This document shows, piece by piece, positions 6,665-47,759 of a stretch of 47,759 nucleotides of DNA. This stretch comes from a virus: positions 1 to 47,759 of IMG/VR virus record IMGVR_UViG_3300045453_000100, one strand, 5' to 3'. The notes under the pieces were generated by a model, which made no database searches, was not told the origin of the DNA, and saw only the letters and a program-made list of their open reading frames with translations. Made by a program: the position numbers and the translations under genes. Position 1 is the stretch's first letter; each line of letters starts with the position of its first letter.

Positions 6665-7225
6665 TTAGTTCGGCCAGCCGGCAGCGGGGTTGATGGCGGC
6701 GATGGCGGCTTCGTCGTCGCCGGCGGCAGCCAGGAGCTCCTTCAGCACCGCGTAGCGGATGCGGATCGCGGTGAAGAGATCGTCGGCCTGCTGCGCCAGG
6801 GCCACCATCTCGGCCGGCGCGAACGTGACCCACACGTTCGCCTTGGTGCGATAGGGCATGCCGCCCTCGGGCCAGGTGAAGCCCTCGGTGCCCTGCAGGA
6901 CGAAGCCCGCGCGCGTGGCGCGGGCGCCGAGGTTGCCGCGGCTCTCGGCGTCGATCTGGACGGCGTCGCCCTGACCGAACGGGCAACCGCGCGCGACCGC
7001 CGCTAGGTAGGCCGCCTCGATCGCCCCACGCTTGGTCGCGCGCAGGCCGGCGATGTCGACCGGCGGTGCGACCAGCTCGTCGCCCTGCACGCGCCAGCCT
7101 TCCTGGCAGCCGACCGCCGCAGGCCTGAACGTCGCCGCCAGCGACTCGTGGTAGCGCTCGGCCGGTGCAACGTCGAGCTCGACGAGCTCGACCACAACGC
7201 CGTCTTCGATACGTGCGTATTTCAT
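6665..7225 (-). CDS. DUF4376-type tail fibre accessory protein
   Basis: 186 aa. The N-terminus ([17 protein letters not shown]) is typical of phage tail fibre accessory proteins. The C-terminal half has the DUF4376 pattern: an Arg-rich helix, then [12 protein letters not shown] and later W-x-T with helical segments ending in NPAAGWPN. It lies between two fibre genes on the same strand, 10 bp upstream of the collar protein. Probable role: fibre assembly or a fibre tip component. Confidence 0.75.
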
Positions 7226-33973: not shown

Positions 33974-34260
33974 CGCAGCTTTCCCCATTGCAGCAGCAGC
34001 GGATCGTTCAGAACTCTGGCGATCCACACGACCGTCCAGATCGCATAGCCAAGAGCGACGAGGACGAGCGCGGCCAGCACAGCCACGCCCGCCAGGGTCC
34101 ACCATCGCTGACGGGAGGCCCATGCCTTCCAGGGCGGGGCCGCAAGCTGGCCTCTGCGGACCGCGATCAGGTTGCGGCGTTGCTCGCCGTCAGGGAGGGC
34201 GGGCAGAGCGAAGTCGATCGCTTTCTCGAGATCGCGCACTCGCGCGGCGCTATTGATCAT
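33970..34260 (-). CDS. Single-pass membrane protein (96 aa)
   Basis: 96 aa from ATG 34260, overlapping the ParB-like stop by 4 bases. An N-terminal basic helical part (RVRDLEKAIDFALPALPDG) is followed by one long hydrophobic segment (TLAGVAVLAALVLVALGYAIW) near residues 56-78. Unknown function. It may be a superinfection-exclusion or membrane-anchored replication accessory protein; this is inference only. Confidence 0.75.
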   Translation of the reverse strand: MINSAARVRDLEKAIDFALPALPDGEQRRNLIAVRRGQLAAPPWKAWASRQRWWTLAGVAVLAALVLVALGYAIWTVVWIARVLNDPLLLQWGKLR

Positions 34261-35102
34261 GGCTGGTTCCTCCTCTCGATCGCGCGGTCGTAGCGCTTGC
34301 GCAGCAGCCGCTGCAGCGCCGCTTCGATCGTGCCGCCCTCGCGGGCCCGGTGAACGCGCGCCCGGCCGATCTCGTCGTCCAGGTCGAGATCCGCGAGCAT
34401 CGACACGAAGGTCGGGCGATGCAGCGCCCGTCCCATCTCGGCCACGATCCTGACCACGGCGGCGATGTTGGAGGCCTTGAAGGCGTCCTCGGCCTCGCCC
34501 TGCGCTTCGGCGAGGATGGAGAGGCCGGCCGAGATCGCCGGGTCGCCGAGCGGCAGCAGCTTCTCGAACGTGGTGGTCGCGTAGGTGGCCTTGGGCGGCA
34601 GCCGTTGCGCCGAGCGCACGATCGTCACGCCGGCCTTTGCGCAGAGCGCCGCGATCCGCCTGGCCGTCGGATCGCCGCCGGCTTCCGCCGCCCAGAACCG
34701 GTGCAGCCGGGTGATGCCGATGCGGCGCGCGTTCAGCGCGACGAAAGCCTTTGCCTGCATGCGGACGTCCGGCGCCTCGACCACGTAGCAGGGCAGCTCG
34801 TCGACCAGCGGATGCTTCTTCGCCGCCTCGAGGCGGTGCTGGCCGTCGATGACCAGATAGCCCCCCCCGGTGGCCGCCGGCGCGACGCAGATCGGCTGGT
34901 AGAACAGCCAGTTGAATTCGCGCACGATCCGGTTGATGTGCGCGCGGTTCTTGTCTCCCAGCTCGCGCTGGTAGCGGCGGTCGACCGCGAGCTTGTCGAC
35001 GGCGATCCACTTCAACTTGGGCGGCGGCCCTATGTCGGTCGAGGCCTTCTCGGCCCGGCGCTTGGCCGTCGCGGCGGCGCCATGGAGGGCAGGCGTCGTC
35101 AT
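34257..35102 (-). CDS. ParB-like nuclease-domain protein
   Basis: 281 aa. The N-terminal half has the ParB/sulfiredoxin pattern VDRRYQREL, PICVAPAATGGGYLVIDGQHR (DGQHR near residues 85-89) and a following NARR helix; the rest is helical. It overlaps the primase stop by 4 bases and the membrane gene by 4 bases. DUF6551-like ParB proteins of this type are common in phage replication modules. Function unknown; possibly DNA binding or an NTP-dependent nuclease. Confidence 0.85.
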   Translation of the reverse strand: MTTPALHGAAATAKRRAEKASTDIGPPPKLKWIAVDKLAVDRRYQRELGDKNRAHINRIVREFNWLFYQPICVAPAATGGGYLVIDGQHRLEAAKKHPLVDELPCYVVEAPDVRMQAKAFVALNARRIGITRLHRFWAAEAGGDPTARRIAALCAKAGVTIVRSAQRLPPKATYATTTFEKLLPLGDPAISAGLSILAEAQGEAEDAFKASNIAAVVRIVAEMGRALHRPTFVSMLADLDLDDEIGRARVHRAREGGTIEAALQRLLRKRYDRAIERRNQP

Positions 35103-36193
35103 GCCGGCACCCCCGAACGCCGTTCGGCCGCGGCCCTGAGCTGCACCAGGTCGTTGAAGTCGCCCTTTTCGGCCGCGAGGTTCGGGATCTTCACCGCGAC
35201 GGTGCGCCCGATGTTCCAGTCGGCGCGCCGGGCCTCATGCGCGAAGATCTCGCCCCAGCGCGTGCCGTTCTTGCCGCCCTTGTCGGCGGCGTAGATGAAA
35301 TCCCGGCAGGCGAAGGGCGGCTCGACCGTCTTCATGCGGCCGGAGTTCACGAAGGCGATGCCCGAGCGCTTCCAGAGCTGCATCGCCGACAGCGACGATT
35401 CGATCCCCTCGCCGCCCACCATCTCGTCCGCGTCGGGCCCGAGGCGGATGAAGCCCGGCTCGTAGGAACCGACCACCAGCTTCGCCTTCTTCACCGGCGC
35501 CTTGGTCCAGGCGCCGCCTTCGCCACGCGCCAGGAAGGTCTGGTGGACCGTCAGCAGCGTGCCGTCGTGTGCGCGGATTGCCGCGATCATCGCCGGAAAC
35601 TCGCGGCGCTCCTGGTAGTGCCAGCAGCGCTCGAGATAGCGGAGGTCGGGCGGCCAGCCAGCGTTGAGCGTCGCGTCCCCGATGCCGTACTCCGCCGGCG
35701 GCACGATCGCGCGCTGCCGCAGATAGCGATCGACCGTGCCGCCGGCGACAAGGGCGGTCGACCGGCGCATGAGCTCATGGCTGCGGTTCAGCCGGTCGCG
35801 GTCGCCGACCTGTGCAACTGCGGGCTTGCGCGCCGCCGGCGAGGGCTTGAGGTGGTCGATACCGTTCTGGCTTTCCAGCAGCTCGACCGCGTCCTTGAAC
35901 TCGAGGCCCTGCTGGCGCATCACGAACGAGATCACGTCGCCCTTGGCCTGGCAGCCGTAGCAGACGAAGAAGCCGACCTTCACCTTCTGGCCGCCGTGCG
36001 GATAGACCGTGAACGACGGCGAGTTTTCGGCGTGGAAGGGACAGAGCCCGACCAGCGACCGGCCGCCCGACTTGCCCTTCAGTGCCACCACCCGGCCGAT
36101 CACATCGTCGATCGCCACGCGCTCGACGACGTTGCGCTTGCGCTTCTCCCAGGTCTCGTCGTCCCAGGACCGTGACATCGCGTCGGTCCTCAT
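35099..36193 (-). CDS. DNA primase, CHC2 zinc finger and TOPRIM-like
   Basis: 364 aa; start ATG at 36193 overlaps the preceding stop as ATGA. Zinc ligands C51, H54, C78, C81 (CPFH and CYGC) form the CHC2 finger. The TOPRIM-like part carries EGIESSLSAMQ and a FIYAADKGGKNG with acidic residues. It lacks a helicase domain, consistent with the separate helicase gene. It primes phage replication. The C-terminal ERRS tail arises from a palindrome copy. Confidence 0.93.
   Translation of the reverse strand: MRTDAMSRSWDDETWEKRKRNVVERVAIDDVIGRVVALKGKSGGRSLVGLCPFHAENSPSFTVYPHGGQKVKVGFFVCYGCQAKGDVISFVMRQQGLEFKDAVELLESQNGIDHLKPSPAARKPAVAQVGDRDRLNRSHELMRRSTALVAGGTVDRYLRQRAIVPPAEYGIGDATLNAGWPPDLRYLERCWHYQERREFPAMIAAIRAHDGTLLTVHQTFLARGEGGAWTKAPVKKAKLVVGSYEPGFIRLGPDADEMVGGEGIESSLSAMQLWKRSGIAFVNSGRMKTVEPPFACRDFIYAADKGGKNGTRWGEIFAHEARRADWNIGRTVAVKIPNLAAEKGDFNDLVQLRAAAERRSGVPA
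35115..35125. repeat. Dispersed palindrome copy 14 (GAACGCCGTTC)
   Basis: Perfect copy at the extreme 3' end of the primase gene, read as ERRS. Confidence 0.95.
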
Positions 36194-37637: not shown

Positions 37638-38029
37638 CGGCGCACCATGACGGTCGGGCCGGCCGCGGTCGGCTCGATGAAGACACCAGCGTCGACGCGG
37701 CGGCTGACTTCGTTGAACTTGTCGAGCGTGACCTGACCGAGGTCGATGCCGATCCTGAAGGCCAGGATATCGAGATAGGTCGCCACGTCGGCGCATTCCT
37801 TGCCGAGATCGGCACGCGCTTCGTCGAGCGTAAGGTCGCCACGCTCGACCTTCTTCACAAGGTTCGCCAGCTCTCCCAACTCGCCGAGAACAGCATTGCA
37901 CCAGGTCGACAGGGCCCAGTCTGAACCATCTGCCTGAGAGTGCGCAGGCTGGCCCTTCTTGTTCCTGAAGTGCGGCAGTCGCGCGACGTTGGCCTCGCGC
38001 AGCACGGCAAACGTCATGGTCTTGTTCAT
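37634..38029 (-). CDS. MazG-like nucleotide pyrophosphohydrolase
   Basis: 131 aa from ATG 38029, overlapping the upstream stop as ATGA. The MazG core is visible: LGELGELANLVKKVERG, then LGKECADVATYLDILA, which carries the ExxE and ExxD metal-binding ligands. The C-terminus has an EVSRRV segment. It would hydrolyse dNTPs or alarmones; substrate unknown. Confidence 0.9.
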   Translation of the reverse strand: MNKTMTFAVLREANVARLPHFRNKKGQPAHSQADGSDWALSTWCNAVLGELGELANLVKKVERGDLTLDEARADLGKECADVATYLDILAFRIGIDLGQVTLDKFNEVSRRVDAGVFIEPTAAGPTVMVRR

Positions 38030-38502
38030 CGTCCCTCCTCCCCGCGCGCGATGGCGGCGACTGTCGACAGAAGCTGGGCGTAGGCCTGGACGGCCTCGGT
38101 CAGATCGGGCAGCGCGGCGCGCGCCTCGTCGGGCGACAGCTTCCCGTCGAGCAGTGCCTGGACGAGCTGCGCCGCCGATTCGCCGGACTGGCGCACGGCA
38201 TCGGCGGTGAGCTGGCCCACCTCGGAATTGGTCTTTGGCATGGGCACGAAGGCGCCGCCGGCGAGGCTCGCCAGGAACTCGACGGCCGCCGTCGCCTCGC
38301 GCGAGGTGAGCGCAGCCACCCGGGCGAACGAGATCTCGTCCTCGCGCGTCGGGTCGGCATAGGCGTAGGTCGCCGCCTGGCCGGTGCCGAGACGGACCAT
38401 GACGCGCTCGACGCCACCCACCTGCGCGTAGAGATCGGCGACGCAACCCTTCACGGTGCCGGGCGGGCGCGGCTTCATCGGCTTGAAGGCGGGACGGGTC
38501 AT
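38026..38502 (-). CDS. Hypothetical early protein (158 aa)
   Basis: 158 aa, ATG overlapping the upstream stop as ATGA. Contains a basic Pro-rich N-terminus (KPMKPRPPGTVKG), then a helical body (REATAAVEFLASLAGG, SAAQLVQALLDGKL, EAVQAYAQLLSTVAAIARG). No family recognised. The tight overlaps support expression in the early operon. Confidence 0.75.
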   Translation of the reverse strand: MTRPAFKPMKPRPPGTVKGCVADLYAQVGGVERVMVRLGTGQAATYAYADPTREDEISFARVAALTSREATAAVEFLASLAGGAFVPMPKTNSEVGQLTADAVRQSGESAAQLVQALLDGKLSPDEARAALPDLTEAVQAYAQLLSTVAAIARGEEGR

Positions 38503-38726
38503 GTGCGCCGGCCCCAGAAAGGCGGCCTGGCGCTATGGTGGCCGCCTCGGAGCGGTACGCCCAGATCTTCGACGATGACTCGCTCCGACTTCGCCGGCGC
38601 CTTTGGGGCCGAGAACGACACCGACGAGGGCTGCACCACTCGCGGGCCCGGTCGCTCGCCGTCGAGCGTCACATCGAGCAGCAAGCTCCTGCTGCGGCCG
38701 CCCGACATCCAGATCGTCGCCCTCAT
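38499..38726 (-). CDS. Small hypothetical early protein (75 aa)
   Basis: 75 aa from ATG 38726, overlapping the Cro-like stop as ATGA and the next start by 4 bases. It is basic and Ser/Pro/Arg-rich (SGGRSRSLLLDVTL, HHSARPPFWGRR). No recognised domain. Expressed early if the operon is read as predicted. Confidence 0.65.
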   Translation of the reverse strand: MRATIWMSGGRSRSLLLDVTLDGERPGPRVVQPSSVSFSAPKAPAKSERVIVEDLGVPLRGGHHSARPPFWGRRT

Positions 38727-39016
38727 GGCCCCTCTCCCGGGGCCGCCGACACCGCTGCGCTGGACTCGCGAACGCCGTTCGGCACCGACGGCGCGGGCAG
38801 CGGGTCGCCGGGCTTCCAGTCGGCGGGAATCAGCGCTTCGAGCGCCCGGACCGTGTTGCCCGAAGGTGCCCAGTCCGGTCGCGCCATGCTGCGGGTCGTC
38901 ACGTCCGACAGCCGCGCCTCGCGGGCAAGCCGTGCCGGCTTCCAGCCTCGCGCCTCGGCGAAGGCGCGGATGCGGTCCAGCACGGTGTTGAAGGTCGCGG
39001 GCGAGGGAAGATGCAT
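38723..39016 (-). CDS. Cro-like HTH repressor (97 aa)
   Basis: 97 aa from ATG 39016; a GTG at 39043 would add nine residues. The HTH is near residues 15-45 (FAEARGWKPARLAREARLSDVTTRSMARPDW). The C-terminal 30 residues are Pro/Ser/Ala-rich and include PNGVR from a palindrome. It is the first gene of the early operon, transcribed from the strong minus promoter in the operator region, so it is the natural Cro counterpart of the CI-like repressor. Confidence 0.82.
   Translation of the reverse strand: MHLPSPATFNTVLDRIRAFAEARGWKPARLAREARLSDVTTRSMARPDWAPSGNTVRALEALIPADWKPGDPLPAPSVPNGVRESSAAVSAAPGEGP
38770..38780. repeat. Dispersed palindrome copy 15 (GAACGCCGTTC)
   Basis: Perfect copy in the C-terminal linker of the Cro-like protein, read as PNGVR. 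Confidence 0.95.
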
Positions 39017-39030
39017 GAACCAACCGGGAG

Positions 39031-39125
39031 CGTTTATTTCCACGACCCTATATCCAGTGGCGCGTTTAAGTCAACGCTTCGTTATTTTTCACGTCACTGC
39101 GACTATTCGGACGTGAAAAACAACG
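39031..39125. promoter_or_regulatory. Operator cluster between cro-like and repressor genes
   Basis: Four 14-bp dyads: 39031-39044 (CGTTTATTTCCACG), 39063-39076 (CGTTTAAGTCAACG), 39080-39093 (CGTTATTTTTCACG) and 39112-39125 (minus strand CGTTGTTTTTCACG). Sites two and one overlap the -35 and start region of the minus promoter, and site four overlaps the repressor's GTG. This is a classic CI/Cro switch layout. Confidence 0.8.
39047..39074 (-). promoter_or_regulatory. Early minus-strand promoter (Cro operon)
   Basis: TTGACT (39069-39074) and TATAGG (39047-39052) separated by 16 bp on the minus strand. It is embedded in operators one and two and directs the early operon. Confidence 0.75.
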
Positions 39126-39736
39126 CTTCCCATGCGGAGGTCGAGCGGCTGCGCAAGGCGCTGAGAGACTTCATGACCAGCCGGAACCTCGTGCGCACGA
39201 CCTGGTGCAAGGCAGCAGGCGTCAGCGAATCTTCCGTCCGATGGTTTCTCTCCGGGCGGACGCGCTCGCTGAACGACGCGACCTATCGCAAGCTGGCGGC
39301 CAACCAGAACGTGCCGATCGCGGTGCTGCGCGGCGAAGAGGCCGGCGAGCGCGACATACCGATCCGGTCCTACGTCGGCGCCGGTGCCGAGATCGTGCCG
39401 TTCCAGGGCGATGAGGCGGTCGACTACGTCACGGTGCCGGCGGGCCTCGCGCCGCTGGTCGGCGGTGGCTACCGCGTGAAGGGCGATTCGATGGTGCCCA
39501 TGTTCCACGACGGTGACGTGATCTTTCCCGAGCCGCACCCGGCACCGCCGGAGAAACGCATCGGCAGCGTCGTAATCGCCGACCTAAAGGACGGACGGCG
39601 GCTGGTGAAAAAGCTGATCCGCGGCAGCAAGCGCGGGCGCTACACCTTGCTCAGCGTCAACCCCGCCGAGCCCGCCTTCGAGGACCAGATCGTGGTGAGC
39701 GTAGCTGCGCTGCCTTGGGTCAACCGCAGGATCTGA
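39113..39736 (+). CDS. CI-like repressor with S24 peptidase domain
   Basis: 207 aa from GTG 39113, perhaps leaderless because a weak -10 (TATTCG) ends just upstream; an ATG at 39173 is the alternative. Residues 25-65 form the HTH (WCKAAGVSESSVRWFLSGR). The linker holds YVGAGAE (88-93), the usual autocleavage region. S126 (KGDSMVP) and K166 (RLVKKLI) form the Ser-Lys dyad. It should be RecA-inducible and bind the dyads around its own start and at 40610-40653. Confidence 0.92.
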   Translation: MKNNASHAEVERLRKALRDFMTSRNLVRTTWCKAAGVSESSVRWFLSGRTRSLNDATYRKLAANQNVPIAVLRGEEAGERDIPIRSYVGAGAEIVPFQGDEAVDYVTVPAGLAPLVGGGYRVKGDSMVPMFHDGDVIFPEPHPAPPEKRIGSVVIADLKDGRRLVKKLIRGSKRGRYTLLSVNPAEPAFEDQIVVSVAALPWVNRRI

Positions 39737-39745
39737 GCCGGAAGG

Positions 39746-40549
39746 TCAGCTTGAGGGGCAGTTCCGGCGCAGCCAGGAGATCTGCACCGCCATCGGCCGG
39801 TTGAGGTCCGTATAGCTCACCGGCGCGCCGTGTTGCACCAGGCCGCGAATCGCCGTCCAGCTCGGGCCGAATAGCACGTTGCCGGCGTCCTCGACCTGCC
39901 GTCTGTCTGGGCTGCGTCGCATGACGTCCATCACACCGCCGATGTATGCGCCCGTGTCGAGCGGCCGCCCGGCGTCTCGCCACTTCACTCCGATCGCGTT
40001 GAGAAGAGAGGCGAGTGTCGGATACTGGCCTGCCGCCGCCCGGCTCGCGCCACCCGTCAGAATCTCGTATCCGAAACCCGCCGAAAGACGGTCCCCGCCC
40101 GCGGCCTCCGCGGCGGCGGCGAAGGCTTCCTTGTGGTCCGACGACCAGTCGAAGTCGAACTCCTTCGCCGTCCCGCCCTCGATCCGAACGACCAGTCGAC
40201 GTGCCGCGGAAAGTTCCGTTGCAAAACCATCGGCGTTCGCCGGTGCGAACGTCAACGTCTCGGGTGGCTTTACCTCGCCGTCCGCCGGCATGGGGCTATT
40301 CCGATCGATCCGCGTCAGCAGCTTCACCCGTCCGGGCAGCGCCGCCAGCTCATAGGACCGCACCGAATAGCCGCTGCAGTTTACGAAGAACGCCGACCTG
40401 CCATCGTGGGCGGGCGCAACGAGGAACACGATCCTCCTGTCGGTCATCTTGTCGGTGCGATCGACCCGCACGACCTGCGCCGACGCACCGAGCGGCGGCA
40501 TCAACAAGGTCGCGCAGACCGTTGCGACCGCGAGGAAAACTCTCGTCAT
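39746..40549 (-). CDS. Secreted hypothetical protein (267 aa)
   Basis: Signal peptide at residues 1-24 (MTRVFLAVATVCATLLM to GASA). The mature domain has no recognised family. Features include two Cys in the mature part, WSSDHKEAF and WLRRNCPSS at the end, and conserved-looking GYEILTGG. It lies convergent with the repressor and is flanked by the second operator cluster, a typical place for lysogenic-conversion cargo. Its promoter would face operator E/F, so expression in lysogens is possible. Confidence 0.8.
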   Translation of the reverse strand: MTRVFLAVATVCATLLMPPLGASAQVVRVDRTDKMTDRRIVFLVAPAHDGRSAFFVNCSGYSVRSYELAALPGRVKLLTRIDRNSPMPADGEVKPPETLTFAPANADGFATELSAARRLVVRIEGGTAKEFDFDWSSDHKEAFAAAAEAAGGDRLSAGFGYEILTGGASRAAAGQYPTLASLLNAIGVKWRDAGRPLDTGAYIGGVMDVMRRSPDRRQVEDAGNVLFGPSWTAIRGLVQHGAPVSYTDLNRPMAVQISWLRRNCPSS

Positions 40550-40609: not shown

Positions 40610-40653
40610 CGTTTATTTTCACGTTTCCAGTTGACTTGGCGTTTATTTAAACG
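40610..40653. promoter_or_regulatory. Second operator pair (right-hand operon)
   Basis: CGTTTATTTTCACG at 40610-40623 and CGTTTATTTAAACG at 40640-40653. Both match the dyad of the cro/CI region; the second is nearly a perfect palindrome and fills the space between -35 and -10 of the plus promoter. Confidence 0.85.
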
Positions 40654-40658
40654 ATTAT
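40631..40658 (+). promoter_or_regulatory. Plus-strand promoter of the ParB/clamp operon
   Basis: TTGACT (40631-40636), 16-bp spacer, GATTAT (40653-40658). Same -35 and spacing as the early minus promoter, with an operator in the spacer, so repressed by CI. Confidence 0.75.
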
Positions 40659-40683
40659 GCGCTCCATTGAAGAGGAGCCGCCC

Positions 40684-40956
40684 ATGCCCGACGCCAGCAC
40701 CTTCGATCCCGAACGCCGTTCGGCGCCCGTCCGCCCGCCGGCCGGCCTGCCGATCTTCTCCACCGAGCGGCTGAATGCCGCCGAGCGGGACGCCCTGCGC
40801 GAGCTGCGCCGACGCTACGAACTCGCGGCCCAGACGATCGCCGACTGCCTGGAATGCGGCCGTGTTGACCGTGCCCTCGACGGGCTCGGATTCGTCTCGC
40901 TCGATACCGACGGCCTCGCCTTGCGGGTCGCCGCCAAGCTGGGCGCCAACCGGTGA
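40684..40956 (+). CDS. Small hypothetical protein (90 aa), first gene of the right operon
   Basis: 90 aa from ATG 40684, with AGGAG 8 nt upstream. An earlier ATG at 40657 overlaps the -10 and cannot start a transcript from that promoter. Residues 25-50 are a charged helix (TERLNAAERDALRELRRRYELAAQTI). DPERRS near the start arises from a palindrome. No family recognised. The stop overlaps a GTG start. Confidence 0.75.
   Translation: MPDASTFDPERRSAPVRPPAGLPIFSTERLNAAERDALRELRRRYELAAQTIADCLECGRVDRALDGLGFVSLDTDGLALRVAAKLGANR
40711..40721. repeat. Dispersed palindrome copy 16 (GAACGCCGTTC)
   Basis: Perfect copy near the 5' end of the first right-operon gene, read as PERRS. Confidence 0.95.
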
Positions 40957-44161: not shown

Positions 44162-44406
44162 CCGCCCCGGCCGAGACGCCGGTGGTCGAGCCCCTGACCG
44201 ACGCCGAGCTGCGGCGCCTGTCGCGCTGGGCGCAGCGATCGACCCTTCCGGCCTGGCCCACCTTCGACCCGTCCATGGCCTCGACGCCGCCCGACACGAT
44301 CATGCGACTGGTCGGCGAACGCAACGCGCTGCGCGCCGTGCTCGAGACGATCGGCGAGTTCAACGGCAACGTCGCCGAGGTCATGAAGCGGATGGGGATC
44401 GAGTGA
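44146..44406 (+). CDS. Small hypothetical protein (86 aa)
   Basis: 86 aa from ATG 44146. Contains LRRLSRWAQRSTLPAWP and RLVGERNALRAVLETIGEFNGNVAEVMKRMGI, a helical protein. No family recognised. Its TGA stop overlaps the ATG at 44406 (TGATG). Confidence 0.7.
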   Translation: MPDSVTAPAETPVVEPLTDAELRRLSRWAQRSTLPAWPTFDPSMASTPPDTIMRLVGERNALRAVLETIGEFNGNVAEVMKRMGIE

Positions 44407-44775
44407 TGCCGCCCCCCCCTTCTGATCTCGGGCGACACGGTCGACCCTCAGAACGTAACGGCCGACATCCTTCCCCATCGACGCGAGGAGCTGCTCTTCG
44501 CGCTGCGCCGGCGCGACGACGCCGAGACTCGCCACCAGCTCGCCCGATGGGCAGAGATCGACATCATTGTCGACGGCGAAGCCCTTGAGATGGACGACTT
44601 CGTCTACCGGGAGCCGCTCTGGGACGACCTCACGCGCTGGCTGCACGGCGAGATCGGCATCCACGTCGCCGAGGGCCGGCACGAGTACGCCATCTGCCTG
44701 CTCGAGCGCTACGCCTTCCCGCCCGCCATCCTGACCAAGCTGCAGTCGCAAATGCGCGACAAGGAGAACGCATGA
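44406..44775 (+). CDS. Acidic protein with a poly-C frameshift near its start
   Basis: ATG 44406 (overlapping the previous stop) is followed almost at once by a run of eight C (44412-44419). The zero frame after it is Arg/Pro noise. Removing one C joins the good frame, starting LLISGDTVDPQNV and running through HRREELLFALRRRDDAETRH to MRDKENA at 44775, about 122 aa. Without slippage the only ATG in that frame is 44590 (61 aa). This is either a homopolymer sequencing error, a phase-variable gene or transcriptional slippage. Its stop overlaps the clamp start by 4 bases. Confidence 0.6.
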
Positions 44776-45890
44776 AATTCGTCGTCGAACGGGCAGCGAT
44801 CCTCAAGCCGCTGCAGCGCGCCGCGCGCATTGCGGTCCGGGGCAACCAGAACACCATCCCGATGCTGAGCCATGTCCAGATCGAGGCCCGCAAGAACGGC
44901 AAGGCGGTGCTGATTGCCACCGACATGGACCGCCAGGTCGAGGTCGCGGTGCCGACCGTCGAGCTCGCCAAGGCCGGCGCCACCACCGCCAACGCGCGGA
45001 CCCTGGCCGAGTTCGTCTCCAACGCGCCCGAGGGAACGCAGATCGAATTCGAGCTGCCGAAGGTCGACGGCCGGCTCACCCTGCGTGCCGGCCGCGGGCG
45101 GGCCGCCTTCGCCGTGCTGCCCGCGGAGGACTTCCCGAAGTTCAACGACCAGGGCAGCGGCACGTTGACGGTTGTCGTCGACGGCGCCGCCTTGCACGCA
45201 GCCCTGGGCGCCGTTGCCCATGCCCAGTCGAACGAGGAGACCCGCTACTACCTCAACGGCACGTACCTTCATGCGGCCGGCGGCGAGCTGGTCTGCGTGG
45301 CGACGGACGGGCATCGCCTGGCGCGCGCGACCCTCCCGGTCGCCGACCTTCCCGAGGGCCTGCCGGGCATCATCATCCCGAGCGCATCGACGGCCGAGAT
45401 CATGGCCCTTGCCGCGAAGACCGACACGCTCGAGCTGGCGATCAACGATCACGCGCTCGCCACCTTCGCCGGCGACGTCGTGTTCCGGACCAAGCTGATC
45501 GACGGCACATTCCCGGACTACGAGCGGGTCTGCCCCCCGAAGGACGTGGCGACGGGCTTCGAGGTCGACCGCAACGCCTTCCTGCTGGCGACCAAGCGCT
45601 GCGTCGCGATCGTGTCGGACAAGATGCGGGCGCTGAAGCTGACGCCGAACGACCGCTCGATCGAGTTGCTGGGCAAGGACGCCGATCGCGGCGAGATCAG
45701 CGACGAGATCGACGCCCAGACCTCGACCAAGATGCCGGTCGGCGTCAACGCCAAGTACCTCGCCGGAGCCCTCGATGCGCTGCAGGGTACCACGGTCTGC
45801 CTGCGCTACGCTGATCCCGGTGCGCCGATCGCGCTGACCGATCCGGCCGACGCCAGCCGGCTGCAGATCGTCATGCCGGTGCGGGTCTAG
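44772..45890 (+). CDS. dnaN: Phage-encoded DNA polymerase III beta sliding clamp
   Basis: 372 aa, the normal length of DnaN. The start MKFVVERAAILKPLQRAARI and the motifs ATDMDRQVEV, LRAGRGRAAF, NGTYLHAAG with VATDGHRLARA and the C-terminal QIVMPVRV (clamp last-strand motif) are clear. It should ring-load onto DNA and recruit polymerase, possibly the host's Pol III. It starts in the previous gene's stop region and belongs to the CI-controlled operon. Duplicate of a host gene. Confidence 0.96.
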   Translation: MKFVVERAAILKPLQRAARIAVRGNQNTIPMLSHVQIEARKNGKAVLIATDMDRQVEVAVPTVELAKAGATTANARTLAEFVSNAPEGTQIEFELPKVDGRLTLRAGRGRAAFAVLPAEDFPKFNDQGSGTLTVVVDGAALHAALGAVAHAQSNEETRYYLNGTYLHAAGGELVCVATDGHRLARATLPVADLPEGLPGIIIPSASTAEIMALAAKTDTLELAINDHALATFAGDVVFRTKLIDGTFPDYERVCPPKDVATGFEVDRNAFLLATKRCVAIVSDKMRALKLTPNDRSIELLGKDADRGEISDEIDAQTSTKMPVGVNAKYLAGALDALQGTTVCLRYADPGAPIALTDPADASRLQIVMPVRV

Positions 45891-46254: not shown

Positions 46255-46758
46255 GTGAATCCCGGCCCGAATGACAGCATCGTGCAGGCACCGGCCGACA
46301 TCGACCACCAATCCCTTGATGCCGTCGCCGGCCGCCTCGGGAAATCGCCGCGCTGGCTGCAGTCGCGGTTGACGGAGGACCGCCGGCGGAGGCCTGATCT
46401 CCAGCGGTTGCAGCATCACCACCACGTCGGCAGATCGAAGAGATGGTCGGAGAACGAATACAGGGCCCTGGAGGCGGCAATCCTGGCCGAGGACGCCGAT
46501 CGCGCGCAGCGCCGCGACGCGCCTCTCCTGGCCTCCAGATCGTTCCACGCGACGGCTTCTGGCACGTCCACGGGACCGTCCGGGTGGCAGCCCTCGACGG
46601 ATCGCGACGCTCTCGCCGCGTTAGAAAGGGTACTGGCCTCCCCGCCGTCGCAGAGACCCTGCCCGATGCCGAAACGCTCCGGGATCTCTGGGCGCTCGAA
46701 GCCCGCCAGGAAGCGATCCACGGCCGACAGCCAAGTCGTGCCGTTTCCATCGCGCTAG
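46255..46758 (+). CDS. Excisionase-like HTH protein, overlapping integrase
   Basis: GTG start at 46255. Residues 20-85 form an HTH module: SLDAVAGRLGKSPRWLQSRL and KRWSENEYRALEAAI, the layout of alphaproteobacterial excisionases. After about residue 85 the composition is out of register with the integrase, and the frame only stops at 46758, overlapping integrase by about 315 bp. The C-terminal half may be a shadow or a real overlap. Likely controls excision. Confidence 0.65.
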   Translation: MNPGPNDSIVQAPADIDHQSLDAVAGRLGKSPRWLQSRLTEDRRRRPDLQRLQHHHHVGRSKRWSENEYRALEAAILAEDADRAQRRDAPLLASRSFHATASGTSTGPSGWQPSTDRDALAALERVLASPPSQRPCPMPKRSGISGRSKPARKRSTADSQVVPFPSR

Positions 46759-47759
46759 AGCAGTTCCTCAAGCGACCGCGTAGGCACGGCCGCAAGCCTG
46801 GCTGGCGCGAGAAGAAGCTCAGCCGGCAGATCGCGCTCCGCTTCAAGATCAGGACAGTCGGCGACATCCCGGCGGCCGAGTGGGCGTCCTTCGCCGAGGC
46901 CTCGATCGCGGGCGCCGCGGCCTCGACGCGCGAGCGGTTCCTAAACGGGTTGATGGCGTTCCTGAACTGGTGCCACAGGAAGCCGCGCCAGTGGATTCCT
47001 GACAAGAACATGCCGCACTTCGAACGCGATGCCGCGGCCCGCAAGCCGAGGCACCGCAAGCGGCGCCAGGTCGCCCAGTGGCGGCCCGAGCTCATCATGC
47101 TGTTCATCGACAATGCCGGCTGGCACCTGAAGCCGCAGCTCTGGGTCGAATGGAGCACCGGGCAGCGCGTGTCGGCCGTCCTCGCCACCAAGCTCGGCGC
47201 CGTCCTCCTGGCGCCCGGCCGCGAGCAGATTACCTACGAGCGGACGAAGAATGGTGAGACGGTCACGGCGTCCCTGCACCCTTCGGCAGCCGAGGCGATC
47301 CGCGAATACCTGAAGAAGCGCGGTCGGCTCTGGGACCGCGAAGGGCCGCTGTTCCTCACAAAGGCCGGCAAGCCCTACCGCACCGACAACCAGCTCAGCG
47401 GCCACAACAGGACGGCGTTCAACAACGCCCGCGCCAGAGCCGTGGCCGCCCGCCGGCGCCAGGCGCTCGAGCTGGCCCTGTCGCTGCGCCGGCGTGGCCT
47501 CGTCGACGAGGCACGGGAGGCGATCGGCCAGGCGCGCGCCGACATGGATCTCATGCGTTCGGTGACGCAGCACTGGTTCCGGCACCTGCTGGCGACCACA
47601 CTGCACGCCATGCAGGCGCCGGCGCGCGTCGCCATGGACCAGGCCGGCTGGCAGACCGTGGAGAGCTACATGGCCTACGCGCACGACGTGCCCGAGGTCC
47701 GGCGCTCGATCGTCAACCAGCTCCCGCTACCGGCGCCGGCGAAGAGGGAGACGGCCTAG
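46443..47759 (+). CDS. int: Tyrosine recombinase integrase
   Basis: 438 aa from ATG 46443; the first 30 residues are Gly/Arg-rich and the true start may be later. An arm-binding-like N-terminus (IVPRDGFWHVHGTVRV) and SAM-like core (residues 120-200) precede the catalytic domain: R242 (STGQRVSAV), K269 (RTKNGE), H377 and R380 (QHWFRH) and probable nucleophile Y412 (MAYAH). The gene ends at the last base of the window. Confidence 0.93.
   Translation: MVGERIQGPGGGNPGRGRRSRAAPRRASPGLQIVPRDGFWHVHGTVRVAALDGSRRSRRVRKGTGLPAVAETLPDAETLRDLWALEARQEAIHGRQPSRAVSIALEQFLKRPRRHGRKPGWREKKLSRQIALRFKIRTVGDIPAAEWASFAEASIAGAAASTRERFLNGLMAFLNWCHRKPRQWIPDKNMPHFERDAAARKPRHRKRRQVAQWRPELIMLFIDNAGWHLKPQLWVEWSTGQRVSAVLATKLGAVLLAPGREQITYERTKNGETVTASLHPSAAEAIREYLKKRGRLWDREGPLFLTKAGKPYRTDNQLSGHNRTAFNNARARAVAARRRQALELALSLRRRGLVDEAREAIGQARADMDLMRSVTQHWFRHLLATTLHAMQAPARVAMDQAGWQTVESYMAYAHDVPEVRRSIVNQLPLPAPAKRETA

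Follow-up and report, generated by a model that had tools for sequence, protein, structure and literature searches.

An IMG/VR virus record of 47,759 bases (the window) encodes a full-length bacterial-type beta sliding clamp (DnaN) in an operon whose promoter contains a predicted operator of the phage CI-like repressor. The reading that we favor, with a probability of roughly 0.6, is that this protein serves as a DNA polymerase processivity clamp private to the phage, placed under CI control and used with the polymerase and the clamp loader of the host. Phage DnaN is a kind already known, of which the present clamp is a further example; the comparison of operators across related contigs (L020, L021, L022 and L024) and the phage clade which they form with the present clamp are new facts. 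Phage clamps are widespread and old, and their role in the phage is apparently little studied. A literature search that covered few subscription journals gave no account of what a beta-type phage clamp does, and the phage papers searched either have no mention of one or name DnaN only as a partner of YabA.

A full-length clamp at the end of a phage operon

The clamp gene is an uninterrupted open reading frame with an ATG start (Table 1). Its product was matched by the three Pfam clamp domains (N-terminal, 72.1 bits versus a cut-off of 24.4; central, 85.1 versus 27; C-terminal, 58.9 versus 27) and by TIGR00663 (197.8 bits versus 137.65), the combination by which a bacterial DnaN was recognized, and phrog_947 spans residues 1–372 (2.9e-69), a full-length profile match within a virus record. 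The protein ends in IVMPVRV, which preserves the typical clamp ending. A preliminary description of this DNA had proposed a full-length DnaN with intact N- and C-terminal motifs, and both statements are upheld by these matches and by the ending. The predicted model (pLDDT 94.6) displays the three-domain fold with six pore helices, and it resembles the Caulobacter clamp 6jir_A (Z 44.0, rmsd 1.3, 365 residues). T4 gp45, in contrast to the three-domain bacterial type encoded here, is a trimer of two-domain subunits. It is likewise a phage-coded sliding clamp (PMC9690074). PHROG 3007, labeled as a RusA-like Holliday junction resolvase, also matches the clamp (1.2e-15). In one case from this family, Bcep781-15 (L006, 1453–2034), the protein's own annotation is a Pol III beta fragment, and the resolvase label is probably wrong.

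The clamp lies at the 3' end of a plus-strand operon which starts near 40657. Two other products of this operon gave no match in the searches made, namely the 179-aa protein in Pfam and PHROG and the 86-aa protein in PADLOC. The small gene that directly precedes the clamp runs to 44775, across the clamp ATG at 44772. Its frame is open 5' of its first ATG and it resembles, by eye, a longer relative in L024 (5696–6004). The upstream ATG at 44406 belongs to a different frame, and eight consecutive C stand in between (44406–44590); this frame break would be an assembly slip, a frameshift or an unusual start. The terminase, portal, capsid, sheath and baseplate genes are on the minus strand, as are the early genes for a CII-like regulator, a primase piece, a ParB-like protein and a helicase-like protein, the weak tblastn relatives of which are annotated as primase or primase/helicase.

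Table 1. Early-region features of the virus record, in order of position (operators and promoter are predictions)
Feature	Position	Strand	Basis or remark
Helicase/primase-like P-loop protein, 626 aa	31188..33068	-	P-loop by eye; weak tblastn relatives
ParB-like protein, opposite early operon	34257..35102	-	Domain matches
DnaG-type primase piece, CHC2 zinc ribbon and Toprim	35099..36193	-	Domain matches
CII-like regulator (Phage_CP76), near head of opposite early operon	38026..38502	-	Domain match
CI-type operator, upstream of CI	39031..39044	.	Palindrome copy
CI-type operator, upstream of CI	39063..39076	.	Palindrome copy
CI-like repressor, S24 peptidase-like domain, GTG start	39113..39736	+	Peptidase_S24
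CI-type operator, degenerate copy	40610..40623	.	30 bp upstream of the 40640 copy
Promoter-like TTGACT-16-GATTAT, clamp operon	40631..40658	+	Sequence
CI-type operator, perfect palindrome CGTTTATTTAAACG	40640..40653	.	Inside clamp operon promoter
First operon gene	40657..40956	+	Probable start 40684, from comparison with relatives
ParB-domain protein, 598 aa	41612..43408	+	Leading HTH read by eye; relatives in 4/4 related contigs
Small operon gene, 74 aa	43405..43629	+	Relative in the record of L021
Operon gene, 179 aa	43622..44161	+	Relatives near DnaN in L020, L022, L024
Small operon gene, 86 aa	44146..44406	+	Relative near DnaN in L024
Small gene overlapping clamp start	44590..44775	+	Relatives directly before DnaN in L020, L021, L022, L024
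Beta sliding clamp (DnaN), 372 aa	44772..45890	+	Pfam, TIGR00663, PHROG, predicted fold
Tyrosine integrase, downstream of clamp	46443..47759	+	Pfam, PHROG

Predicted operators shared by the repressor gene and the clamp operon

The CI-like gene was assigned from its Peptidase_S24 match (41.9 bits versus a cut-off of 23.3), an HTH_31 match being below threshold (16.6 bits versus 27). The longer open reading frame 38603–39736 corresponds to phrog_4, and a relative of the repressor, 67% identical, is encoded in L024. When the whole record was searched for CGTTTANNTAAACG with up to two mismatches, four sites were obtained (39031, 39063, 40610 and 40640) for 0.21 expected, a number which none of 100 shuffles reached, and all four lie within two intergenic stretches, 1) upstream of CI and 2) at the clamp operon promoter. 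In the latter, the perfect palindrome falls between the -35-like TTGACT and the -10-like GATTAT. The repressor gene and the promoter which it would control share palindromic operators, and binding of CI to them is predicted.

Similar operators are present both upstream of CI and at the clamp operon promoter in related phages, reading CGTTAA..TTAACG in L024, ATTCGCAT..ATGCGAAT in L021 and CGGATA..TATCCG in L022. In these three, as in the present phage, the promoter pair is 30 bp apart with TTGAC in between; L020 has a TTTGTAT..GCAAA-like pair about 35 bp apart and, by eye, no clear TTGAC. In all five phages, the shared-palindrome score was higher than that of any of the 60 shuffles made. Since the layout recurs in four relatives with different operator letters, the case for repressor control is firmer. 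About 4.1 kb separate the promoter from the clamp, which is thus a distal gene of its operon, and the gene spacing suggests a single transcript running from the promoter to the clamp. The preliminary description had placed a CI operator in the promoter of the clamp operon, and the four palindromes bear this out, with the clamp as a distal gene and CI binding as an inferred step.

The early module and the descent of its clamp

Among the best 80 of at least 563 viral relatives, the clamps of L020, L021, L022 and L024 are 41–52% identical to the present one. All four related records also encode relatives of the helicase-like protein (45–50%), of the primase (50–60%) and of the ParB-HTH protein (42–55%), with a similar gene order around CI. 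Their terminases are 75%, 64% and 28% alike, and none was found in the last one, so that terminase is weakly alike or not found in two of them. As relatives of the early genes are present in all four and terminase varies, the clamp goes along with the early module and not with the packaging genes. When the helicase-like protein was used for a scan, seven loci were obtained, four of which lie in new records. One of these, G007 (near G003), has a clamp; no clamp match was obtained in G005, G006 or G008, two of which are uninformative on clamp absence (G006 ends beside CI and G008 is 5.9 kb long). The 44-kb G005 (L195–L197) contains relatives of the helicase, primase, CII, CI and ParB-HTH proteins and about 8 kb beyond, and no clamp was detected there even at E 10 (best reading frame, 1.7 bits). 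Because the module can do without a clamp in G005, the clamp would be a common but dispensable, accessory part of this helicase/primase/ParB module. Of 385 genomes drawn from the class to which G011 (the genome of locus L102, titled Thalassospira) belongs, 9 contained relatives of the helicase-like protein. The host is probably an alphaproteobacterium, judging from the relatives of the phage.

A single-protein query of IMG/VR gave no close relative of the clamp; an alignment query did find relatives, in at least 563 viral-contig stretches, of which the best 80 (L020–L099) were studied with flanks of up to 6 kb. These 80 loci have a CI-like gene in 28 cases, an integrase relative in 14, a DUF2303 relative in 38, recF in one and none of the markers tried in 28. 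GenBank phage records matching the clamp number 53, all below 60% identity and 35 covering at least 80%. In some of them, the DNA is bacterial although the record is listed under phages; L009 (CAKLQH020000026, named Acinetobacter phage) contains dnaA-dnaN-recF-gyrB and is bacterial chromosomal DNA. Several named phages of alphaproteobacteria, AmM-1 (Aurantimonas), 16-3 and RR1-A (Rhizobium), Rivra (Agrobacterium), Pyei1 and Psul1 (Paracoccus), also have full-length clamps of PHROG 947, annotated as DNA polymerase III beta subunit or processivity factor. AmM-1, Rivra and Pyei1 likewise have CI, small plus-strand genes and DnaN in this order, and in Rivra, RR1-A and Psul1 an integrase follows DnaN, as in the present phage. 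However, these clamps are at most 37% identical to the present one over the whole protein, and, unlike them, it has as neighbors a ParB-HTH protein along with small genes of its own group. Beta-type clamps are common in alphaproteobacterial phages and appear to represent an old phage lineage near CI and integrase; the carriage of a clamp is not exceptional in this group, a point on which the preliminary description was overstated.

The clamp was placed in a quick tree of 91 rows and in a careful tree of 59 rows, including 18 host clamps, for which 32 of the 91 rows were dropped once the quick tree had been seen (rows with long branches, rows suspected to be bacterial DNA, and further rows to thin the set). 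In the 59-row tree, the present clamp and those of L020, L021, L022 and L024 form a clade (support 100/100) with a long stem (0.81 changes per site), nested in a phage group (96/95) to which none of the 18 host clamps belongs. Forcing the clamp with the hosts and the outgroup cost 90.5 log-likelihood units (p-AU 4.3e-5), a test somewhat weakened because the group was chosen with the first tree already known. A recent capture of host dnaN, which the preliminary description had named, together with a lack of expression on induction, as the outcome that would speak against it, is rejected by the trees and the AU test. One origin for all phage clamps is supported in the filtered 59-row tree only (96/95); it is not claimed here, since the 91-row tree needs 12 changes of viral label and the filtering came after the first tree. 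In the 91-row tree, several viral rows (e.g., L025, L089 and L068) fall in or beside the host clade; these may represent separate captures, or else DNA of bacteria. In addition, 379 plasmid records match the clamp, including the small MesoLjLa5 (56 kb), in which DUF2303 and ssb adjoin dnaN, DUF2303 directly before it. Such small plasmids are possibly phage-like, and DUF2303 is a possible functional partner of the clamp.

Putative role of the clamp after induction

The proteins scanned in the record include no recognized phage DNA polymerase, so the polymerase partner of the clamp must be that of the host. A strict clamp-binding motif occurs in none of 55 reading frames (0.34 in shuffles; one frame contained stops) and a loose one occurs once (2.1 in shuffles), and the idea of a phage partner with a canonical motif was dropped, as nothing was found beyond chance in these frames. 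Since there is neither a phage polymerase nor a clear clamp-binding motif among the proteins scanned, host Pol III and its clamp loader are the likely users. In the mechanism that we propose, CI would bind its operators and keep the clamp operon shut in the prophage; upon induction, the loss of CI would allow transcription of the operon, and the phage clamp would form its own head-to-tail dimer, be placed on phage DNA by the host clamp loader and support replication of the phage by host DNA polymerase III. The phage would thereby gain an extra supply of clamps and a clamp separate from host repair and regulation. A temperate phage with its own clamp, and in which no polymerase was found, offers a simple setting for the question of why a virus would replace an interchangeable part of its host.

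The residues of the clamp are consistent with this proposal. They were compared, at the functional sites described for the E. coli clamp, with the 80 alphaproteobacterial clamps nearest to the query, which are not a random sample. The phage clamp equals the host majority at 155 of 366 positions overall, at 17 of 20 sites of the partner cleft and at 9 of 21 sites of the dimer interface, and a hydrophobic cleft able to bind partners is predicted. The six pore helices have a net charge of +6 (mean of the 80 nearest alphaproteobacterial clamps, 5.4; sd 1.0), with +4 in helix 1 by itself. The pore is positively charged although E. coli R24, R80, R197 and K198, near-invariant in hosts, are Q, S, S and A in the phage clamp. 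Chromosomal alphaproteobacterial DnaN (e.g., Caulobacter crescentus, 6jir) is alike in fold, cleft residues and pore charge; it differs in the interface and in some DNA-contact residues, is about 35–40% identical and resides in dnaA-dnaN-recF and not in a phage operon. As read from the alignment, the cleft has been preserved while the remainder diverged, including the dimer interface and part of the DNA contacts. The kept cleft and positive pore fit a ring which continues to surround DNA and to bind the usual clamp partners; a dimeric ring, loading on DNA, a gain in processivity and a use in replication are what these features would predict. Points that weigh against the proposal are the four altered basic positions, the module without a clamp in G005, and the failure to find a phage polymerase or a strict clamp-binding motif among the proteins and reading frames scanned. 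The L024 clamp terminates in VMSYGGQG (7085–7119), so that its cleft for partners has a C-terminal portion that was lost or displaced.

It is unlikely that the clamp is instead a platform for recombination, repair or late transcription of the phage, and not for bulk replication. Clamps of other alphaproteobacterial phages are found in such surroundings, next to a Cas4-type exonuclease, a sigma factor and a helicase in 16-3, to a RecB-type exonuclease and a sigma factor in RHph_TM3_3_14B, and to SSB and DUF2303 in RR1-A; the DUF2303 relatives in the flanks of 38 of the best 80 of at least 563 loci point the same way, as does, by analogy, the part of T4 gp45 in late transcription (PMC9690074). 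However, the genes linked to the clamp here and in the four close relatives are ParB, primase and helicase-like genes, neither a sigma factor nor an exonuclease was recognized in the genes scanned in the record, and no strict clamp-binding motif occurs in the 55 reading frames scanned.

The preserved cleft would also permit the phage clamp to capture host clamp-binding proteins, or its subunits to mix with those of the host, thereby blocking host replication after induction. Such a competitor is quite improbable, since the positive pore which has been kept would be superfluous in a pure decoy, the change of the interface pair F106/L108 (hosts, 95% and 99%) to A/F suggests poor mixing with host subunits, and the clamp travels with replication-type genes. 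As for a clamp insulated from host defense or from inhibitors aimed at DnaN, the long clade stem and the drifted surface outside the cleft would fit, but this is very unlikely given that PADLOC, run on 10 proteins of the record, returned methyltransferase models only and no match to the clamp, and that the literature search found no defense tied to a phage clamp. The preliminary suggestion of a link to clamp-linked defenses thus gained nothing from PADLOC. Overall, what the preliminary description observed is confirmed and what it concluded is supported in part, its idea that the clamp interferes with or replaces that of the host being speculative.

The favored reading of a processivity clamp used with host enzymes has a stronger form, which we put forward as an unlikely proposal. 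The clamp may be orthogonal to that of the host, with a rebuilt interface (A/F at F106/L108) and displaced DNA-contact charges, so that only homodimers would form while the partner cleft is kept. If this were true, a phage-only pool of clamps would draw host polymerase to phage DNA after induction and would escape the clamp-based control of the host (initiation shut-off, repair and defense). The same type of phage would allow one to ask if clamps can become private.

The interval between CI and the clamp operon is occupied by a minus-strand gene with a signal-peptide-like start (39746–40549). In the matching position, L024 has a different secreted-looking gene on the plus strand (1271–1600), and this slot may hold host-altering cargo.
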